Positions 17,865-24,808 of a stretch of 64,000 bases of DNA are shown here, one piece after another. The stretch is taken from assembly GCA_944327625.1 (NCBI GenBank), contig CALVHL010000003.1, forward strand, positions 1 through 64,000, read 5' to 3'. The notes beneath the pieces are model-generated. The model saw only the letters and a list, made by a program, of their open reading frames with translations. It had not been told where the DNA came from and made no database searches. Position 1 is the stretch's first letter; each line of letters begins with the position of its first letter. This stretch comes from an uncultured Clostridia bacterium (GTDB lineage Bacteria > Bacillota > Clostridia > Christensenellales > Borkfalkiaceae). The position numbers and the translations under genes are program-made.

Positions 17865-18314
17865 ATGACAGGCAAACACAGGGAGAACTATAACGCCAAC
17901 TATCTCGAATACGTAAAGCGGCACGATCCCCCCACGAAGCACCTCAGAAACTGCGCGGCGGCGTTCGGCGTGGGCGGATTCATCTGCGCGATAGGTCAGT
18001 TTTTCAGGTTCATGCTCGAATACGCGGGGCTGTCGGGCGATATGCTGTCGGGCACGGTGTCGGCAATACTCATCTTCATCGGCTGCCTTCTGACGGGGCT
18101 GGGCGTATATGACCGAATAGGCCGCCACGCGGGCGCGGGCTCAATCGTGCCCATTACGGGTTTTGCCAATTCCGTCGCCTCGCCCGCAATAGAATTCAAG
18201 ACCGAAGGCTATATCTACGGCATGGCGGCAAAGATGTTCACCGTGGCGGGCGCGATAATCGTGTTCGGCGTATTTTCGGGCGTAGCGGTCGGACTTATCT
18301 ATTCTTTCATATAG
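17865..18314 (+). CDS. spoVAC: Stage V sporulation protein AC (orphan)
   Basis: A 149-aa inner-membrane protein of the SpoVA channel that moves dipicolinic acid in spore-forming Bacillota. Diagnostic stretches are NCAAAFGVGGFICAIGQFF, LTGLGVYDRIGRHAGAGS and PITGFANSVASPAIEFKTEG, with four hydrophobic segments. In Bacillus, spoVAC travels with spoVAD and spoVAE; neither is next to it here. It follows the SDR gene by 75 bases and has a good ribosome site (GGGGGAGAGG). The family call is firm; a spore role in this organism is inferred. Confidence 0.93.
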   Translation: MTGKHRENYNANYLEYVKRHDPPTKHLRNCAAAFGVGGFICAIGQFFRFMLEYAGLSGDMLSGTVSAILIFIGCLLTGLGVYDRIGRHAGAGSIVPITGFANSVASPAIEFKTEGYIYGMAAKMFTVAGAIIVFGVFSGVAVGLIYSFI

Positions 18315-18387
18315 TTGTAAAATTCTGGCAAAATACAATATATTGTGTTTAGTCAAAAAATAAATAGCAATATTTTGTAATAAGGTG

Positions 18388-18416
18388 TTGACAATGTCGG
18401 GTGTATATGCTATAAT
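18388..18416 (+). promoter_or_regulatory. Consensus sigma-A promoter of the pfl unit
   Basis: TTGACA (18388-18393), exactly 17 bases, then TATAAT (18411-18416): a full consensus promoter. It reads straight into the ZTP riboswitch. Upstream lie an inverted repeat TTGTA(N14)TACAA at 18315-18338 and a 12-base palindrome ACAATATATTGT at 18335-18346, which may be regulator sites. Confidence 0.85.
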
Positions 18417-18432
18417 CGCGTTGTAGGTGAAA

Positions 18433-18546
18433 GGGGTGTGCCGTAACTGACGATATTAGCGGAATAACCGCGTGGAGCGGCACACTTTATGCAAAGTCGT
18501 TCGTCTGGGCAAAAGTATCGCGCTTGCGGTAGTTTGCCCTTATTTT
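18433..18546 (+). ncRNA. ZTP riboswitch (pfl motif) with terminator platform
   Basis: Senses ZTP/ZMP, the alarmone of 10-formyl-tetrahydrofolate shortage. Seen: an outer stem GTGTGCCG (18436-18443) with CGGCACAC (18478-18485), the conserved GTAACTGACG stretch (18443-18452), an inner hairpin GCGG/CCGC (18459-18471), GTGGAG, and then the hallmark GTTCGTCTGGGCA (18499-18511), whose CGTC can form the pseudoknot with GACG. Immediately overlapping is an intrinsic terminator, GGGCAAA (18507-18513) with TTTGCCC (18533-18539) followed by TTATTTT. Ligand binding to the CTGGGCA arm would therefore block termination, switching pfl genes on when folates are short. This motif class was first named for its association with pfl genes, which fits. 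Confidence 0.88.
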
Positions 18547-18560
18547 ATGCGGAGGCGCTC

Positions 18561-19283
18561 GTGGAAGGATATATTCATTCGTTTGAATCATTCGGCACGG
18601 TCGACGGGCCCGGCATACGCTTCGTCGTATTCGTGCAGGGCTGCCCCATGCGCTGTAAGTACTGCCACAACCCCGACACCTGGACGTTCGGCACGGCAAA
18701 AAAATATACCGCCGAAGAAGTCGCTAAAAACGCGCTCCGCTACAAGAACTACTTTACGGGCGGCGGGGGCATAACCGTCTCTGGCGGCGAACCCATGGCT
18801 CAGGCGGGGTTTGTGACCGAACTTTTCAGCCGCATAAAGGCGGCAGGCGTTTCTACCGCGCTCGACACTTCGGGCGCTATGTTCGACTGTAACGACGTAC
18901 ATAAATTCGACGCGCTTTTGGCTGTCACCGACCTCGTTCTGCTCGACATAAAGCACATCGACGGCGAACGCCACAGGGAGCTGACGGGGCGTCCCAACGA
19001 CAATATACTCGCCTTTGCCCGCTATCTCTCGGATATGGGCAAGGATATGTGGATTAGGCACGTGCTCGTCCCCGGCATAACCGACGACGATAAGTATCTT
19101 ACCGACCTCGCCTCGTTCATAAAGACGCTTAAAACGGTCAGAAAGGTAGAGGTTCTGCCCTATCACACCATGGGCGTCGTCAAGTATGCCTCTCTCGGCA
19201 TACCCTATCCGCTCGACGGCGTTCAGCCGCCCTCGGCAGAGCGGGTGCTCAACGCAAAAAAAATTCTGGGGGTTATTCAATGA
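18561..19283 (+). CDS. pflA: Pyruvate formate-lyase activating enzyme
   Basis: A radical SAM enzyme, 240 aa, that abstracts a hydrogen from the PFL glycine to install its radical. The [4Fe-4S] motif is C28, C32 and C35 in CPMRCKYC. SAM contacts are recognisable in GGGGITVSGGEP. I place the start at the GTG at 18561, not further upstream: GGAGG lies five bases before it, and any earlier in-frame start would sit inside the riboswitch terminator. From GTG the protein opens VEGYIHSFESFGTVDGPG, the normal PflA start. Its stop overlaps the next start (ATGA). Its partner radical glycine is on a separate small protein here. Confidence 0.95.
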   Translation: MEGYIHSFESFGTVDGPGIRFVVFVQGCPMRCKYCHNPDTWTFGTAKKYTAEEVAKNALRYKNYFTGGGGITVSGGEPMAQAGFVTELFSRIKAAGVSTALDTSGAMFDCNDVHKFDALLAVTDLVLLDIKHIDGERHRELTGRPNDNILAFARYLSDMGKDMWIRHVLVPGITDDDKYLTDLASFIKTLKTVRKVEVLPYHTMGVVKYASLGIPYPLDGVQPPSAERVLNAKKILGVIQ

Positions 19284-19579
19284 GCGCAAATTTTGAGGGA
19301 ATGTGCATGATAGAGTTTTACGGCGACTCCTGCGCGAGCTGTCACGCCGTAATGCCCGTTCTCAGCGCGCTTGCGCCCCGCTTCGGCTATAAGTTCATAA
19401 GGGTGAACGCCGAGGACGACGGCAAACTTGCCGAAGAATATTCGATAACGCGCGTTCCGACGGTAATACTTGCCGACGGCGGCAGGGAATTTGCCCGCTT
19501 TTCGGGCTATCAGCCGCCTGAAATACTCGAAATCTGGCTGGAAGCCAAGACCGAGGATTATAAAAAAGACGCAAACTGA
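19280..19579 (+). CDS. Thioredoxin-like protein within the pfl operon
   Basis: A 99-aa thioredoxin fold. The redox motif is C18-A-S-C21 in GDSCASCHAV, in place of the usual CGPC. The cis-proline region TRVPTVILAD and the C-terminal helix are in place. It starts within the pflA stop codon, so it is translationally coupled to the activating enzyme. It lies upstream of the PFL core. A role in keeping PFL or its activase cysteines reduced is inference from the neighbourhood; no reductase is nearby. Confidence 0.85.
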   Translation: MSANFEGMCMIEFYGDSCASCHAVMPVLSALAPRFGYKFIRVNAEDDGKLAEEYSITRVPTVILADGGREFARFSGYQPPEILEIWLEAKTEDYKKDAN

Positions 19580-19648
19580 CGCCACGCGGCGGCAAAGCCG
19601 CGCGGCTTACCATACAGAAAAAAGTATCTAATTTGAGGAGAATTACAG

Positions 19649-21679
19649 ATGTTCTATAAACAGTGGGAGGGATTTAACCCCGGCAAATGGAGCGACGACG
19701 AAGTAAACGTCCGCGATTTCATTCAGCGCAACTACACCCCTTACGAGGGCGACGGTTCGTTCCTCGCAGGCCCCACCGAGGCGACGAAAAAACTGTGGTC
19801 GGAGATCATGGAGCTTTCCGCCAAGGAGCGCGAGGCGGGCGGCGTACTCAAAGCAGACACCAAAATCGTCTCCACGCTGACCAGCCACGGCGCGGGCTAT
19901 ATCGACAAGGAGCTCGAAAAGATAGTCGGCTTGCAGACGGACGAGCCCTTCAAGCGCTCTCTGCAGCCCTTCGGCGGCATAAAGATGGCAGAGCAGGCGC
20001 TCAATATGTACGGCTACGAGCTCGATCCCTCGGTAAAGGAGATATTCACCAAATACCGCAAGACGCACAACGACGGCGTGTATGACGCATATACGCCCGA
20101 AATGCGCAGGGCGCGCACCGCGCACATTCTGACGGGACTGCCCGACACCTACGGCAGGGGCAGAATAGTCGGCGACTACCGCAGGGTTGCGCTCTACGGC
20201 GTCGACTATCTCATCGCGCAGAAGAAGAAGGATAAAGATCTCATAGACGGCGACATGACGCCCGACAGGGTGCGCGACAGGGAAGAACTGTCCGAGCAGA
20301 TCCGCGCCCTCGAAGCGCTCAAAAAGCTCGCCGAAATCTACGGCAAGGACATCTCTCAGCCCGCAACCACCGCGCAGGAGGCTATTCAGGCGCTGTACTT
20401 CGGCTATCTCGGCGCGGTCAAGGACCAGAACGGCGCGGCAATGTCGATAGGCAGAAATTCCACCTTCCTCGACATATACATTCAGAGGGATATAGAGCGC
20501 GGAATACTCGACGAGAGCGCCGCGCAGGAGCTCATCGACCAGTTCGTAATGAAGCTCAGAATTGTCAAGTTCATGAGAATTAAGGAGTATAACGAACTGT
20601 TCTCGGGCGATCCCACGTGGGTTACCGAGAGCATAGGCGGCATGGGCGTCGACGGCAGAACGCTCGTCACCAAGTCGTCGTTCAGAATACTTCACACGCT
20701 CAAAAACCTCGGCCCCGCACCCGAGCCCAACCTCACCGTGCTGTGGTCGAAAAATCTCCCTGCGGGCTTCAAGAAGTTCTGCGCGGAGACCTCGATAGCA
20801 ACTTCCGCCATACAGTACGAAAGCGACGACATAATGCGCCCCGAAATGGGCGACGACTATTGCATAGCCTGCTGCGTCAGCTGTATGCGCGTCGGCAAGG
20901 ATATGCAGTTCTTCGGCGCGAGGGCAAACCTCGCAAAGTGCCTGCTGTACGCCATCAACGGCGGCAAGGACGAGCTTGCCAAGGACAGAAAGACGGGCAA
21001 GCCCCTGCAGGTTTCGCCCATGTACGCGCCCGTCACGGGCGACGGCCCGCTCGACTATGACGACATAATCGTCAAGTACGAACAGATGATGGACTGGCTG
21101 GCAAAGCTGTACGTCAATACGCTCAACCTGATACACTATATGCACGACAAGTACTCTTACGAGGCGCTCGAAATGGCTCTGCACGATACCAACGTGCGCC
21201 GCTTCTTCGCCACGGGCATTGCGGGGCTTTCGTGCGCGGTAGACTCGCTCTCGGCGATTAAGTACGCCAAGGTATATCCCATCCGCAATGAGGAAGGGTT
21301 GGTCGTAGATTTCAGAACCGAGGGCGAATATCCCCAGTACGGCAACAACGACGACCGCGCGGACGACATAGCCGTCTGGCTGGTCAAGACCTTCATGAAC
21401 AAGATTAAGAGCCACTATACCTACCGCGAAAGCGTGCCTACCATGTCCATACTGACGATAACTTCCAATGTCGTCTACGGCAAAAAGACGGGCAACACGC
21501 CCGACGGCAGAAGGGCGGGACAGCCCCTCGCGCCCGGCGCAAACCCCATGCACGGCAGGGATAAGAGCGGCGCACTCGCCTCGCTCGAATCGGTTGCAAA
21601 GCTGCCCTACGAATATTCGAGGGACGGCATCTCCAACACCTTCTCGGTAACGCCTGCGTCGTTGGGGAAGGAAGACTAG
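19649..21679 (+). CDS. pflB: Pyruvate formate-lyase core, lacking the glycyl-radical domain
   Basis: Converts pyruvate and CoA to formate and acetyl-CoA. The 676-aa product has the PFL barrel and the two adjacent catalytic cysteines C408-C409 in [18 protein letters not shown]. It stops at [11 protein letters not shown]. Full PFLs of about 750-760 aa continue there into the glycyl-radical domain with the RVSGYAV loop. That domain follows 267 bases later as a separate gene, and 676 + 76 = 752 residues, so nothing appears lost. The ribosome site is TTTGAGGAGAATTACAG. By itself this chain cannot hold the radical, so it must pair with the small protein. The stop falls in a hydrophilic linker, which makes it a plausible split point. 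A 725-codon antisense frame here is a shadow. Confidence 0.93.
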
Positions 21680-21946
21680 ACTGTTTCGTAATTTTGTCGC
21701 TTGGTGACAGCGACAAAATTGACGAGGTTGGGGAGGCGCTGCCTCCCTGCCCTCAATCATAAGGGCTCTCATATTACTGAATTGAGGGCATTCCCTCCGC
21801 TCAGGTTGCGGTAGCAACAAATGCTGTGAAAAAGCAAAAAGTGTGATTTTTGCTTTTTCCGTAAATTATTTAAGGAAGCAGGTGAAAACTTGTAATTACT
21901 GTTTGAACTACTTTTGTGTATATAAAAAAATAAGGAGAAATGAATT
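21680..21946 (+). other. Hairpin-rich spacer splitting pflB
   Basis: Five perfect hairpins in 180 bases: 12 bp (21690-21701 with 21709-21720), 7 bp (21731-21737 with 21741-21747), 10 bp (21748-21757 with 21781-21790), 5 bp (21805-21809 with 21814-21818) and 13 bp (21828-21840 with 21847-21859). The last is A-rich then T-rich, as in an intrinsic terminator. The remaining 87 bases are AT-rich and end in AATAAGGAG. No open frame, transposase or terminal inverted repeat is visible. Confidence 0.8.
21828..21859 (+). terminator. Probable intrinsic terminator between pflB core and glycyl-radical gene
   Basis: A 13-bp perfect stem (GAAAAAGCAAAAA with its complement) and a 6-base loop; the 3' arm is itself T-rich (TTTTTGCTTTTT). 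Partial termination here would set the ratio of core to radical-domain transcripts, unless a second promoter lies in the AT-rich tail. Confidence 0.55.
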
Positions 21947-22177
21947 ATGTCAAGGGCAGATAATCTTGTTAATATGCTGGACGCGTATGTTGCGGACGGC
22001 GGACATCATCTCAACGTAAACGTATTCAGCCGCGAAACGCTGCTGGACGCGCAGGCTCATCCCGAAAAATACCCTCAGCTCACCATAAGGGTATCGGGCT
22101 ATGCCGTAAACTTCAACAAGCTCACCAAAGAACAGCAGGACGACGTTATAAGCCGTACCATTCACGAAAGCCTTTAA
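21947..22177 (+). CDS. grcA: Free-standing glycyl-radical domain of pyruvate formate-lyase (GrcA-like)
   Basis: A 76-aa protein equal to the C-terminus of PFL. The radical loop is IRVSGYAV with G51, and exactly 25 residues follow it, as in E. coli PFL after Gly734. Residues 5-26 ([22 protein letters not shown], split here only by description) continue the PFL core almost without a gap. The ribosome site AAGGAG is ideally placed. Known: E. coli YfiD/GrcA is an autonomous radical domain that repairs oxygen-cleaved PFL, but it coexists with an intact enzyme. Here the core gene lacks the domain, so this protein should be essential for PFL activity. It is shorter than YfiD, with no extra N-terminal part. 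Confidence 0.93.
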
Positions 22178-22183
22178 TTTCAG

Positions 22184-22210
22184 CTCCCCGCAATTTCGCG
22201 GGGAGTTTTT
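22184..22210 (+). terminator. Intrinsic terminator of the pfl unit
   Basis: CTCCCCGC (22184-22191) pairs with GCGGGGAG (22198-22205) and TTTTT follows. It closes the pfl operon seven bases after the grcA stop. Confidence 0.9.
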
Positions 22211-22222
22211 ATCTATTAAATC

Positions 22223-22251
22223 TTTACATTGCCGCAATCTTATGGTATAAT
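22223..22251 (+). promoter_or_regulatory. Promoter of the leucine-rich repeat gene
   Basis: TTTACA (22223-22228), 17 bases, then TATAAT (22246-22251). It puts the transcription start near 22258 and so argues for the ATG at 22280 rather than the TTG at 22229. Confidence 0.65.
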
Positions 22252-22279
22252 TATTGACAAAGATTTTGCGGGGTACATT

Positions 22280-23641
22280 ATGCGAAACAACATAGAAGGA
22301 CTGTACACAGAGGGCGGAACGGTAATAAAGTATGAAGGCAGCGCGGAAGAACTTAATCTTCCCGTCTACATAAGGCGCATCGCGCCATACGCTTTCCATA
22401 ACTGTAAGACGCTCAAAACCATAATCATGCCCTCCCGCCTAGAATCAATCGGCAAGGGCGCGTTCTACGGCTGTGATAATCTCGTGCAGGCGGTCCTGCC
22501 CGGCAGGCTGTTTTTAAGGGCAAAGGGCAATAACGTATTCGACGACGCCGGCAAGATTTTCTTCCGCTTCTTCACTTCCCAGAGCGGTACGGAGGCGGAG
22601 GACGCCGACTATTCCGACGTCTTTCAGACGGAGGAAGAATATGTCTCATCAGGCTCTAAGCAGTCGGAGATTAACTCCGCCCCCGACAGACGCATACTGG
22701 GTACGGAGGAGGGCGAACACTTCCTCAATAACCTCGACGACGGATTTGTCGGCGCGGAGTACGAGCCGTCGCTCGACGAGAAAAAAGAAGCAATAGTGCC
22801 GCCCGAACGCTCCGCCGACGGACTTAGCGACGAGCAGCGCAGGGAGCTTATCAACGAGCGCAACTATCTCATCGACGGCGACACTGTAATACGCTATATC
22901 GGCGCGGAAAAGCAGACCGAAGTGCCCTCGCACATAGTGTATATCGCCGAAAATGCCTTTTCCAACAGCGGCGTTACGGCGGTCAGACTGCCCTCGGGGC
23001 TTAAATCAATCGGCAAGGGCGCATTTTCGTGGTGCGACAAGCTCGTCGGCATAGACCTGCCGCCCTCGCTCGAAGTAATTGAAGATTCCGCCTTTGCGGA
23101 ATGTCAGTCTCTCGAAGAAATCAACATTCCCGCAAGCGTAAAGTTTATCGGCGCAAACGCCTTCCACGCCTGCAGCGGCGCTAAAAAGCTCAGCCTTCCC
23201 TACGGCGTCAAGGTCATAAGCCGCAGGGCGTTCGACTTCTGCACCTCGCTCGAAAAGGTAATCGTACCCTCGTCGGTGGAGGTATTGCAGGAGGGTGCGT
23301 TCGCGCACTGCGAAAGCCTCGTAAAGGTATCGCTGCCCGACGGCCTCAAAGAGATAGGCGACTGGGCGTTTGCCGAATGTTACGAACTGCGCGAAATCAA
23401 CTTCCCCGCGGGGCTGGAAGTCGTCGGCGAGGTGGCGTTCTTCAACTGCCGCTCGCTCATAGCGTTCGACTTCCCCGCCAGCGTCCACACCGTAGGCAGG
23501 CAGGCGTTCACGGGCTGCGACAGCCTGCACCTTGCCACGCTTCCCAAGGCGCTCATGCCCCAACTTCGTCCCAAAAAGGTGTTCCACGGCGTGAAGAACG
23601 TGACGATAGAATACCTCGACGAAAAGACTATTCCCAACTGA
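22280..23641 (+). CDS. BspA-type leucine-rich repeat protein (LRR_5)
   Basis: A 453-aa protein made of BspA-like leucine-rich repeats of about 23 residues with the pattern L-P-x-x-L-x-x-I-G-x-x-A-F-x-x-C. Two repeats come first (about 20-70), then an acidic, low-complexity linker (about 80-190), then a run of about nine repeats to the C-terminus (for example AFSWCDKLVGIDLPPSLEVI). There is no signal peptide or cell-wall anchor, so it is probably cytoplasmic, unlike surface BspA proteins. I choose ATG 22280 with GCGGGG upstream, because the longer frame begins inside the promoter. Function unknown; the fold suggests protein binding. Confidence 0.85.
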   Translation: MRNNIEGLYTEGGTVIKYEGSAEELNLPVYIRRIAPYAFHNCKTLKTIIMPSRLESIGKGAFYGCDNLVQAVLPGRLFLRAKGNNVFDDAGKIFFRFFTSQSGTEAEDADYSDVFQTEEEYVSSGSKQSEINSAPDRRILGTEEGEHFLNNLDDGFVGAEYEPSLDEKKEAIVPPERSADGLSDEQRRELINERNYLIDGDTVIRYIGAEKQTEVPSHIVYIAENAFSNSGVTAVRLPSGLKSIGKGAFSWCDKLVGIDLPPSLEVIEDSAFAECQSLEEINIPASVKFIGANAFHACSGAKKLSLPYGVKVISRRAFDFCTSLEKVIVPSSVEVLQEGAFAHCESLVKVSLPDGLKEIGDWAFAECYELREINFPAGLEVVGEVAFFNCRSLIAFDFPASVHTVGRQAFTGCDSLHLATLPKALMPQLRPKKVFHGVKNVTIEYLDEKTIPN

Positions 23642-23670
23642 CGGCTTCAAAGCACGATTGCATATATTTG

Positions 23671-23704
23671 CGGGCGGTTTTATCTGTAAACCGCCCGTTT
23701 TTTT
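23671..23704 (+). terminator. Intrinsic terminator after the LRR gene
   Basis: CGGGCGGTTT (23671-23680) pairs with AAACCGCCCG (23688-23697), followed by seven Ts. Confidence 0.92.
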
Positions 23705-23705
23705 A

Positions 23706-23734
23706 TTTACAAACGGGGCGCTCTAATGTATAAT
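23706..23734 (+). promoter_or_regulatory. Promoter of the ComEC-like/aro operon
   Basis: TTTACA (23706-23711), 17 bases, then TATAAT (23729-23734), directly after the LRR terminator and 49 bases before the ATG at 23783. It likely drives the whole block to 28705. Confidence 0.65.
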
Positions 23735-23782
23735 TATAATGTATTATTGTACATAAATAACACATAAGTGTAAGTTACAGAG

Positions 23783-24808
23783 ATGAGCAAGAATAAAAAA
23801 CGCATAAAAGCGGGAAAGATAGCGGCGATAGTCGCCGCGGCGGTCGTCGTTGCCGCCTGCCTCTCCGCCATAATCGCCAATCTGTTCATACCCGTCAGGT
23901 ATCTGTCGGCATATCTCGTATTCAGAGAGGAGCGGACGGCGGGCGAACTGAGGATAACCTGCCTCGACGTGGGCTTCGGCGACAGCTATCTGGTCGAACT
24001 TCCCGACGGCGGCACTATGCTCATTGACGGCGGCGACGGCGAATATTCCCGCGTTTTAAGCCTGCTCACGCTGCTCAATCGGCGCGGCGTCGACAGGATA
24101 GATTATCTCGTCTGCACTTCCGTCAAGGGCGAACACTGCGGCGGGCTCGCCGAAATAGTGCGCTATAAGGAGGTGGGCAAAGCCTTCATTCCGTACTGCA
24201 ACAACACGCGCATAACCGAAGAATATTACGCCTTTATTTCCGCCCTCAGAGACAGCGGGACAGAGTACTCGGTTGCCGAGGTCGGGGCGGGAGTATGCCT
24301 CAGCGAAGACTGTTTTTTCAGCTTTCTTTCGCCCGTAAACAGTCAAAGTCCCGACGGCGAATATGCCGATCTCAACAAGAGCCCGACGGAGGAAAATATC
24401 GAAAGAGCTTCTGCCGTACTCTGGCTCGAATACGGCGAAAACGCCTTTCTTTTCACATCGGACGCGCGCGAGGAGACGCTCTCCCGCATAGTGGCGGAAT
24501 ACGAGCTGTGTTCGGCCCTCGGTCAGCCCTATTGCGCCGTCGGCGGGCGCGAAGTAAAGCTTGAAAAGTGCGACTTCGTCACCGTCCCCGGGCACGGCGG
24601 AAAGTACAATACCTACGCGCCGTTCTACGACCTGATAGCGCCGTCGGACGCAGTCGTCAGCGTCGGCGAAAACTATGCGGGCTATCCCGACGCGACCGCG
24701 CTCTCGGACGTATATGCCTATACAGAACCGTATTACACCCGCTACGACGGCACTATAACCGTCATTGCGGACGCAGAACAATACCGAATAATCAAGGAGA
24801 ACCAATGA
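23783..24808 (+). CDS. Exported ComEC-like metallo-beta-lactamase-fold protein with degenerate metal site
   Basis: A 341-aa protein with a basic N-terminus and one membrane segment (about residues 12-35), so the domain lies outside the cell. It matches the beta-lactamase-like domain found at the end of ComEC and in free-standing relatives: LDVGFGDSYLVELPDGG and LIDGGDGEY are clear. The metal motif, normally THxDxDH-x-GG, reads TSVKGEHCGG, leaving one histidine and losing the first histidine and the aspartate; a later histidine persists in VPGHGGKYN. Zinc hydrolysis is therefore doubtful. Its stop overlaps the aroC start, an odd partner for a shikimate operon. The role is unknown. Confidence 0.7.
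   Translation: MSKNKKRIKAGKIAAIVAAAVVVAACLSAIIANLFIPVRYLSAYLVFREERTAGELRITCLDVGFGDSYLVELPDGGTMLIDGGDGEYSRVLSLLTLLNRRGVDRIDYLVCTSVKGEHCGGLAEIVRYKEVGKAFIPYCNNTRITEEYYAFISALRDSGTEYSVAEVGAGVCLSEDCFFSFLSPVNSQSPDGEYADLNKSPTEENIERASAVLWLEYGENAFLFTSDAREETLSRIVAEYELCSALGQPYCAVGGREVKLEKCDFVTVPGHGGKYNTYAPFYDLIAPSDAVVSVGENYAGYPDATALSDVYAYTEPYYTRYDGTITVIADAEQYRIIKENQ

Follow-up and report, generated by a model that had tools for sequence, protein, structure and literature searches.

Pyruvate formate-lyase (PFL) is one of the main enzymes by which anaerobes break down pyruvate, and air destroys it, the backbone breaking at the radical glycine. In its closest described form, the PflB of E. coli (TIGR01255; PDB 2PFL, 1H16), the enzyme is one piece. 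E. coli also has a free glycyl-radical domain, YfiD/GrcA (PDB 6OWR), which, according to PMC8683613, has a 60-residue disordered N-terminus and repairs intact PFL. The same study describes an engineered core without the radical domain, tPFL (1-695), which was hard to activate with YfiD and had wild-type activity once activated; YfiD binding was not detectable and activation was 32-fold less. In vivo, GrcA together with the radical-dead PflB G734A led to intermediate formate production, as reported in PMC12338860.

The locus described here lies in the window, by which we mean the whole 64,000-nucleotide stretch that was analysed, from contig 3 of a 29-contig, 1.83-Mb genome that is 96.9% complete. 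The PFL genes and the elements around them are arranged as follows.

18388-18416, + strand: sigma-70-like promoter matching the consensus at 12 of 12 positions, the second hexamer being preceded by TG (pattern match only)
18433-18517, + strand: ZMP/ZTP riboswitch (pfl RNA motif, RF01750), 61.8 bits in Rfam
18489-19283, + strand: pflA, PFL-activating radical SAM enzyme (TIGR02493, 311 bits, above cut-off)
19280-19579, + strand: thioredoxin-like protein, 99 aa, with a CASC motif; shares 4 nt with the 3' end of pflA
19649-21679, + strand: PFL core subunit, 676 aa, with C408-C409 and without the radical domain (TIGR01255, alignment)
21680-21946, + strand: 267-nt gap, mostly a dispersed-repeat copy (genome self-comparison), with the Shine-Dalgarno sequence AAGGAG at its end
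21947-22177, + strand: glycyl-radical subunit, 76 aa, RVSGYAV with G51 (NF038360, 156.8 bits)
22182-22207, + strand: intrinsic-terminator-like hairpin directly 3' of the small gene (pattern match only)

The layout of this pfl operon, running from a promoter-like to a terminator-like element, suggests a single transcript. The start of the pflA ORF overlaps the riboswitch; therefore, the true start probably lies farther downstream. The riboswitch is present at 8 of the 14 related loci that were searched, some with short left flanks (5 of 11 split, 3 of 3 one-piece), and since it is found at split and one-piece loci alike, it is independent of the split; it would fit a PFL that supplies formate to one-carbon metabolism. 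Directly 3' of the operon, at 22229-23641, lies a gene for a BspA-type leucine-rich repeat protein.

The core is a close relative of one-piece PflB. It covers TIGR01255 1-662 of 744 and by itself scores 1079.2 bits, above the curated cut-off of 994.2, and it aligns with mature E. coli PflB as far as residue 678 with 64% identity over residues 6-676. The counterparts of E. coli R176, A272, W333, C418, C419, R435, N609 and Y612 are identical in the core, while E582 is replaced by K. We take the listed positions (R176, A272, W333, R435 and the others) to be active- or substrate-site residues. The window enzyme thus resembles PflB in most checked active-site residues, the C418/C419 pair, the RVSGYAV motif and the adjoining pflA, and differs in that its chain is interrupted past about residue 678, in the numbering of mature E. 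coli PflB. An AlphaFold model of the core (52 rows), which covers the core and says nothing on the small subunit, has a pLDDT of 72.8 and superposes on E. coli PFL with a TM of 0.87 and an rmsd of 4.4. A model of the read-through of core, gap and small protein (20 rows) reached a mean pLDDT of 52.9 and is not used as docking evidence.

The core terminates at ..SLGKED, and the radical glycine is not on its chain. The small protein resumes TIGR01255 at 666-744 and aligns with E. coli PflB 682-758, G51 being followed by a 25-residue tail; the Pfam Gly_radical domain (PF01228) is accordingly divided between the two proteins (2-49 on the core, 53-106 on the small protein). The ORFs and the alignments thus agree with the earlier note, which had described a 676-aa core with C408-C409 and no radical glycine, a 76-aa gene with RVSGYAV, G51 and the 25-residue tail, and a small protein that continues the family where the core ends. 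Like YfiD/GrcA, the small protein is a free glycyl-radical domain, its residues 16-76 aligning with YfiD 67-127. However, the ~60-residue disordered N-terminus of YfiD is absent from the 76-aa protein, and YfiD repairs an intact PFL whereas no one-piece PFL was found in the window genome. The tPFL(1-695):YfiD pair, as described in PMC8683613, is similar in that a core without the radical domain is combined with a free domain and is active once activated. In contrast to this engineered pair with its poor binding and activation, the window split is natural and lies about 17 residues earlier. Because tPFL showed no detectable YfiD binding, the natural split would need a tighter or different interface, by which it would have solved the binding problem left by the engineered enzyme.

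The split is common among the relatives of this locus. From 206 relatives, a contig scan retained the best 80, among which there are 67 split and 13 one-piece loci; this list is biased toward similarity to a split core. In the same genus, a core match was present in 50 of 61 genomes, with 30 split, 15 one-piece (one of which is a fragment) and 5 too broken to call; the other 11 were without a detected core. Rows whose records are titled Acholeplasmatales or Bacilli fall within the clade of the window's family. The break site is identical across split loci from independent assemblies, and such recurrence at one site reflects neither chance nor assembly error. An assembly error at 21677-21947, a possibility the earlier note had raised against itself, is ruled out by the same break in 67 of 80 loci and in all of 44 split genomes. 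The gap in the window consists mostly of a dispersed repeat that has 30 matching pieces in the genome including itself, several of them near contig ends, and inverted repeats in it were seen by eye. Parts of this repeat match the gaps of two other split loci (L015 and L016), indicating that the window gap is not a lone assembly fault. pflA adjoins 79 of 86 split rows, and four of the other seven have too little flank to tell. In four split loci (L072, L078, L081 and L082; two titled Acholeplasmatales and two uncultured bacterium), neither pflA nor a thioredoxin-like gene was detected in the available stretch.

In eight comparisons, several with dS near saturation, the core has a dN/dS of 0.05-0.08 and the small gene one of 0-0.09, ratios by which both split parts are under purifying selection. 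Because there are two genes with a common break point, separate translation signals, conserved residues and purifying selection, and no one-piece PFL beside them, we consider it very probable, judging from sequence, that the locus encodes an obligate two-subunit pyruvate formate-lyase. The adjoining pflA, the tPFL and GrcA precedents from E. coli and a break of this type in a second subfamily (see below) also speak for this reading, whereas the poor binding and activation of tPFL count against it. Two products would come from the operon, a 676-aa barrel that bears the catalytic cysteines and the 76-aa radical subunit, and the small subunit would fill the place of the core's lost C-terminal strand and loop. 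PflA would then put the radical on Gly51 of the small subunit in trans, from which it would pass to C409/C408, and the complex would convert pyruvate and CoA into acetyl-CoA and formate. A small subunit cleaved by oxygen might simply be replaced by a new one, which is a guess.

This last step leads to a reading that is compatible with the two-subunit enzyme and that the earlier note had already raised. The split would serve mainly as an adaptation to oxygen, and the small subunit would be a consumable, exchanged once it has been cleaved at the glycyl radical. By analogy, the YfiD-type rescue in E. coli, as presented in PMC8683613 and PMC12338860, speaks for it, as does the gene neighbourhood. 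In a 102-row clade around the window, 97 rows have pflA or a thioredoxin-like gene upstream, and five were left out of the count with neither gene upstream or with the edge of the stretch met. Here, a thioredoxin-like gene lies between pflA and the core at 72 of the 76 split loci and at none of the 21 one-piece loci, and 70 of the 72 genes contain a CxxC motif; we guess that the protein holds the exposed vicinal cysteines of the open core in the reduced state. Four split rows lack the gene (L037, L041, L056, L132), and these group with one-piece rows in the quick tree described below. However, one-piece relatives of the same genus live without the split, and the thioredoxin gene was not found beside the five GrcA3-type loci L159-L163 (see below), four of which have pflA downstream. 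The link between thioredoxin and split is a lead and no test, because it reflects only 2 to 4 independent changes. We place the consumable reading just short of an even chance.

The two-subunit reading depends on the lack of an intact PFL, and the nearest NCBIfam family of the small protein, GrcA3 (NF038360), is named autonomous glycyl radical cofactor; with 156.8 bits, the small protein narrowly misses the cut-off of 158. The name would suit a spare part of the YfiD/GrcA type that serves an intact PFL encoded at another locus. However, a PF01228 search of the window genome (96.9% complete) did not find a one-piece PFL and gave only three matches, which are the core, the small protein and a frame on contig 10. 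This frame is NrdD, its 852 bits exceeding a cut-off of 657, and NrdG (179 bits, cut-off 126) comes next. We extended the search to 44 genomes picked for looking split, 29 of which reach 90% completeness with no more than 5% contamination. The core and the radical domain are separated by a stop in all 44, the junctions having been read for most of them and the calls for G083, G174 and G192 coming from a TIGR01255 genome scan, and none of the 44 contains an uninterrupted TIGR01255 PFL frame. Several carry other glycyl radical enzymes scoring at most 116 bits against the PFL cut-off of 994. Two genomes, G285 and G309, contain many matches to other glycyl radical enzymes, with 16 and 15 TIGR01255 match pieces in all, the split PFL included. 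A one-piece PFL was likewise found in none of 13 further split genomes (completeness not stated; some titled Acholeplasmatales or Bacilli). Conversely, at the search threshold no stand-alone small protein was found in 18 one-piece genomes, each of which has one PFL (in one, G212, a fragment at a contig end), and no genome among the 44 split, 18 one-piece and 13 further ones combines the two forms. The second full-length PFL that would have contradicted the earlier note was thus looked for and not found in this genome, and its claim that the enzyme depends on a separate radical domain is borne out by these genome sets.

The genomic context of GrcA3 itself also argues against a spare part. NF038360 is above its cut-off in 5 of 147 class-wide genomes, and all five, from four other families, have a PFL core without the radical domain directly upstream. 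Among the matches listed for 199 phylum-wide genomes, the window's small protein is the only stand-alone match above 142 bits. GrcA3 is named a stand-alone cofactor, while its context at these loci points to a subunit, and we regard the spare-part explanation as very improbable. The cores of the GrcA3-type loci carry an extra, acidic C-terminal tail after ALGK, which in L160 and L161 contains cysteine as well.

A second way to keep a one-piece enzyme would be to rejoin the two frames by stop readthrough, frameshift or RNA or protein splicing. The ORFs in the window are in the same frame with stops between them, and at L070 (3273-5534) they share a frame and are only one stop and one codon apart, as readthrough would favor. 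Against this, the frame of the small gene relative to the core is distributed 36/27/23 over 86 distinct split pairs, and the gap ranges from 1 to 391 nt with a median of 59. In addition, the small gene starts with ATG in 86 of 86 pairs and has a Shine-Dalgarno sequence of at least 4 nt upstream in 85, the exception being L159; the start was chosen by the best Shine-Dalgarno match, which makes this count favourable. At L176 the small frame extends to 99 aa. No intron was found among Rfam matches in 18000-24000 up to E 1, the ZTP riboswitch being the sole match. Rejoining, which the earlier note had listed as a way in which its reading could fail, is argued against by the variable frame, the small gene's own translation signals and the lack of an intron match; we find it very improbable. 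Decay of the gene, with the split as a disabling mutation, could be read from the repeat-filled window gap and the 11 of 61 same-genus genomes without a detected core, but it is hardly to be believed in view of the low dN/dS of both parts, the presence of the CC pair and SGYAV in 115 of 115 aligned rows, and a split that is common to several families and lineages.

Trees were built from 178 matched loci, which were reduced to 115 rows by leaving out incomplete cores, duplicates and rows without a small match. One-piece genes are interspersed among split ones in the core tree. On the quick tree of 115 cores, no fewer than 5 changes between split and one-piece are required, and starred branches force 3 of these; the careful tree of 69 rows requires 6 (bootstrap range 5-7), with 2 forced in this way. 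A single change occurred in 0% of 200 bootstrap trees of the 69-row set, for which the bootstrap was not fully settled. Separate trees for three segments of the core required 6, 7 and 6 changes, without a single odd segment. The grouping of all split rows was rejected on the core (p-AU 2e-6), while one split clade was compatible with the radical-domain tree (p 0.54; 71 columns). Split-specific residues were listed in the alignment, and lineage and function are inseparable as their cause.

The direction of these changes is read differently by different data. With the quick tree rooted on E. coli as one-piece, allowing re-fusion improves the fit of a two-state model (lnL -22.5, as against -34.2 when it is disallowed), and parsimony gives either one split and four fusions or ten splits. 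On the other hand, 28 of 29 one-piece linkers have exactly seven residues from LG(K/S/H/R) to NL, as in E. coli, and no leftover methionine. The linker pattern and the radical-domain tree count against re-fusion; an intact 3' end acquired by transfer or recombination would account for the linkers as well. Because the core rejects a single origin of the split and the 71-residue radical domain does not, we do not claim re-fusion as shown.

Detachment of the radical domain is also seen outside PFL proper. Three short frames with weaker NF038360 matches (69.7-79.4 bits) in genomes of other families (G334, G504, G565) were retrieved. At each locus there is a PFL2/glycerol-dehydratase-type ORF of 746-775 aa and, no more than 30 nt behind it, a second ORF with VRVAGYSA. 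The split dehydratase-type (TIGR01774-like) loci are as follows.

L179, 473-3120
L180, 419-3001
L181, 657-3179 (the small frame runs off the contig end)

Of the 786 positions of TIGR01774, the cores account for 3 to 707-709, and the small proteins take over at 709-711 and run to the end. These loci therefore break at a boundary that matches that of the window PFL (about 709 of 786), which indicates that the radical domain has become detached here too. They differ from the window in belonging to another subfamily, and all are below the TIGR01774 cut-off, the cores alone scoring 583-632 bits against 678. G334 also holds matches to other one-piece glycyl radical enzymes.

The nearest PDB chains by sequence are 38la_A (687 aa) and 38lb_A (739 aa), both entitled 'Formate acetyltransferase'. 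Each aligns with the core of the window and differs from it in sequence; 38la_A ends at the same ..SLGKED, and 38lb_A continues for about 50 residues without a radical-domain match, as in L160 and L161. A radical-domain chain of 38la or 38lb was not matched by sequence. Both chains look like natural split cores; thus, others have probably worked on such proteins. Neither entry appeared among the best 50 of 135 (read-through model) or the best 50 of 163 Foldseek rows (core model) from a structure library ending 8 April 2026, and they are therefore probably newer. No description of a natural split PFL was found among the literature matches listed for split PFL, GrcA and YfiD, which included few subscription papers, and the parts covered of PMC8683613, PMC12338860, PMC11528403, PMC9850924, PMC12288474, PMC5700188, PMC3543383 and PMC13252398 hold none. 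The window presents a known enzyme in an unfamiliar natural form that is evidently not unknown to structural workers.

The analysis adds to the earlier note the frequency of the split, the link to GrcA3, the split dehydratase-type enzymes, the same-genus one-piece relatives, the thioredoxin-like gene and the two PDB entries. One might generalise that loss of the radical domain to a separate, replaceable subunit has happened repeatedly among glycyl radical enzymes. PFL would then have become an obligate two-subunit class, spread through several lineages, acquired a dedicated thioredoxin and been re-fused more than once, and dehydratase-type enzymes would have split independently. We offer this generalisation tentatively, as somewhat more likely to be wrong than right. 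The split PFL is a clean system for studying trans activation, docking and replacement of the radical domain, and it might tolerate handling in air better than the one-piece enzyme; the occurrence of split and one-piece forms within one genus permits paired comparisons. For annotation, our results suggest that GrcA3, which is annotated as a spare part, is an essential subunit in the six cases here. Finally, to judge from the split dehydratase-type enzymes, the radical domain may be a module that can be detached in the wider superfamily.
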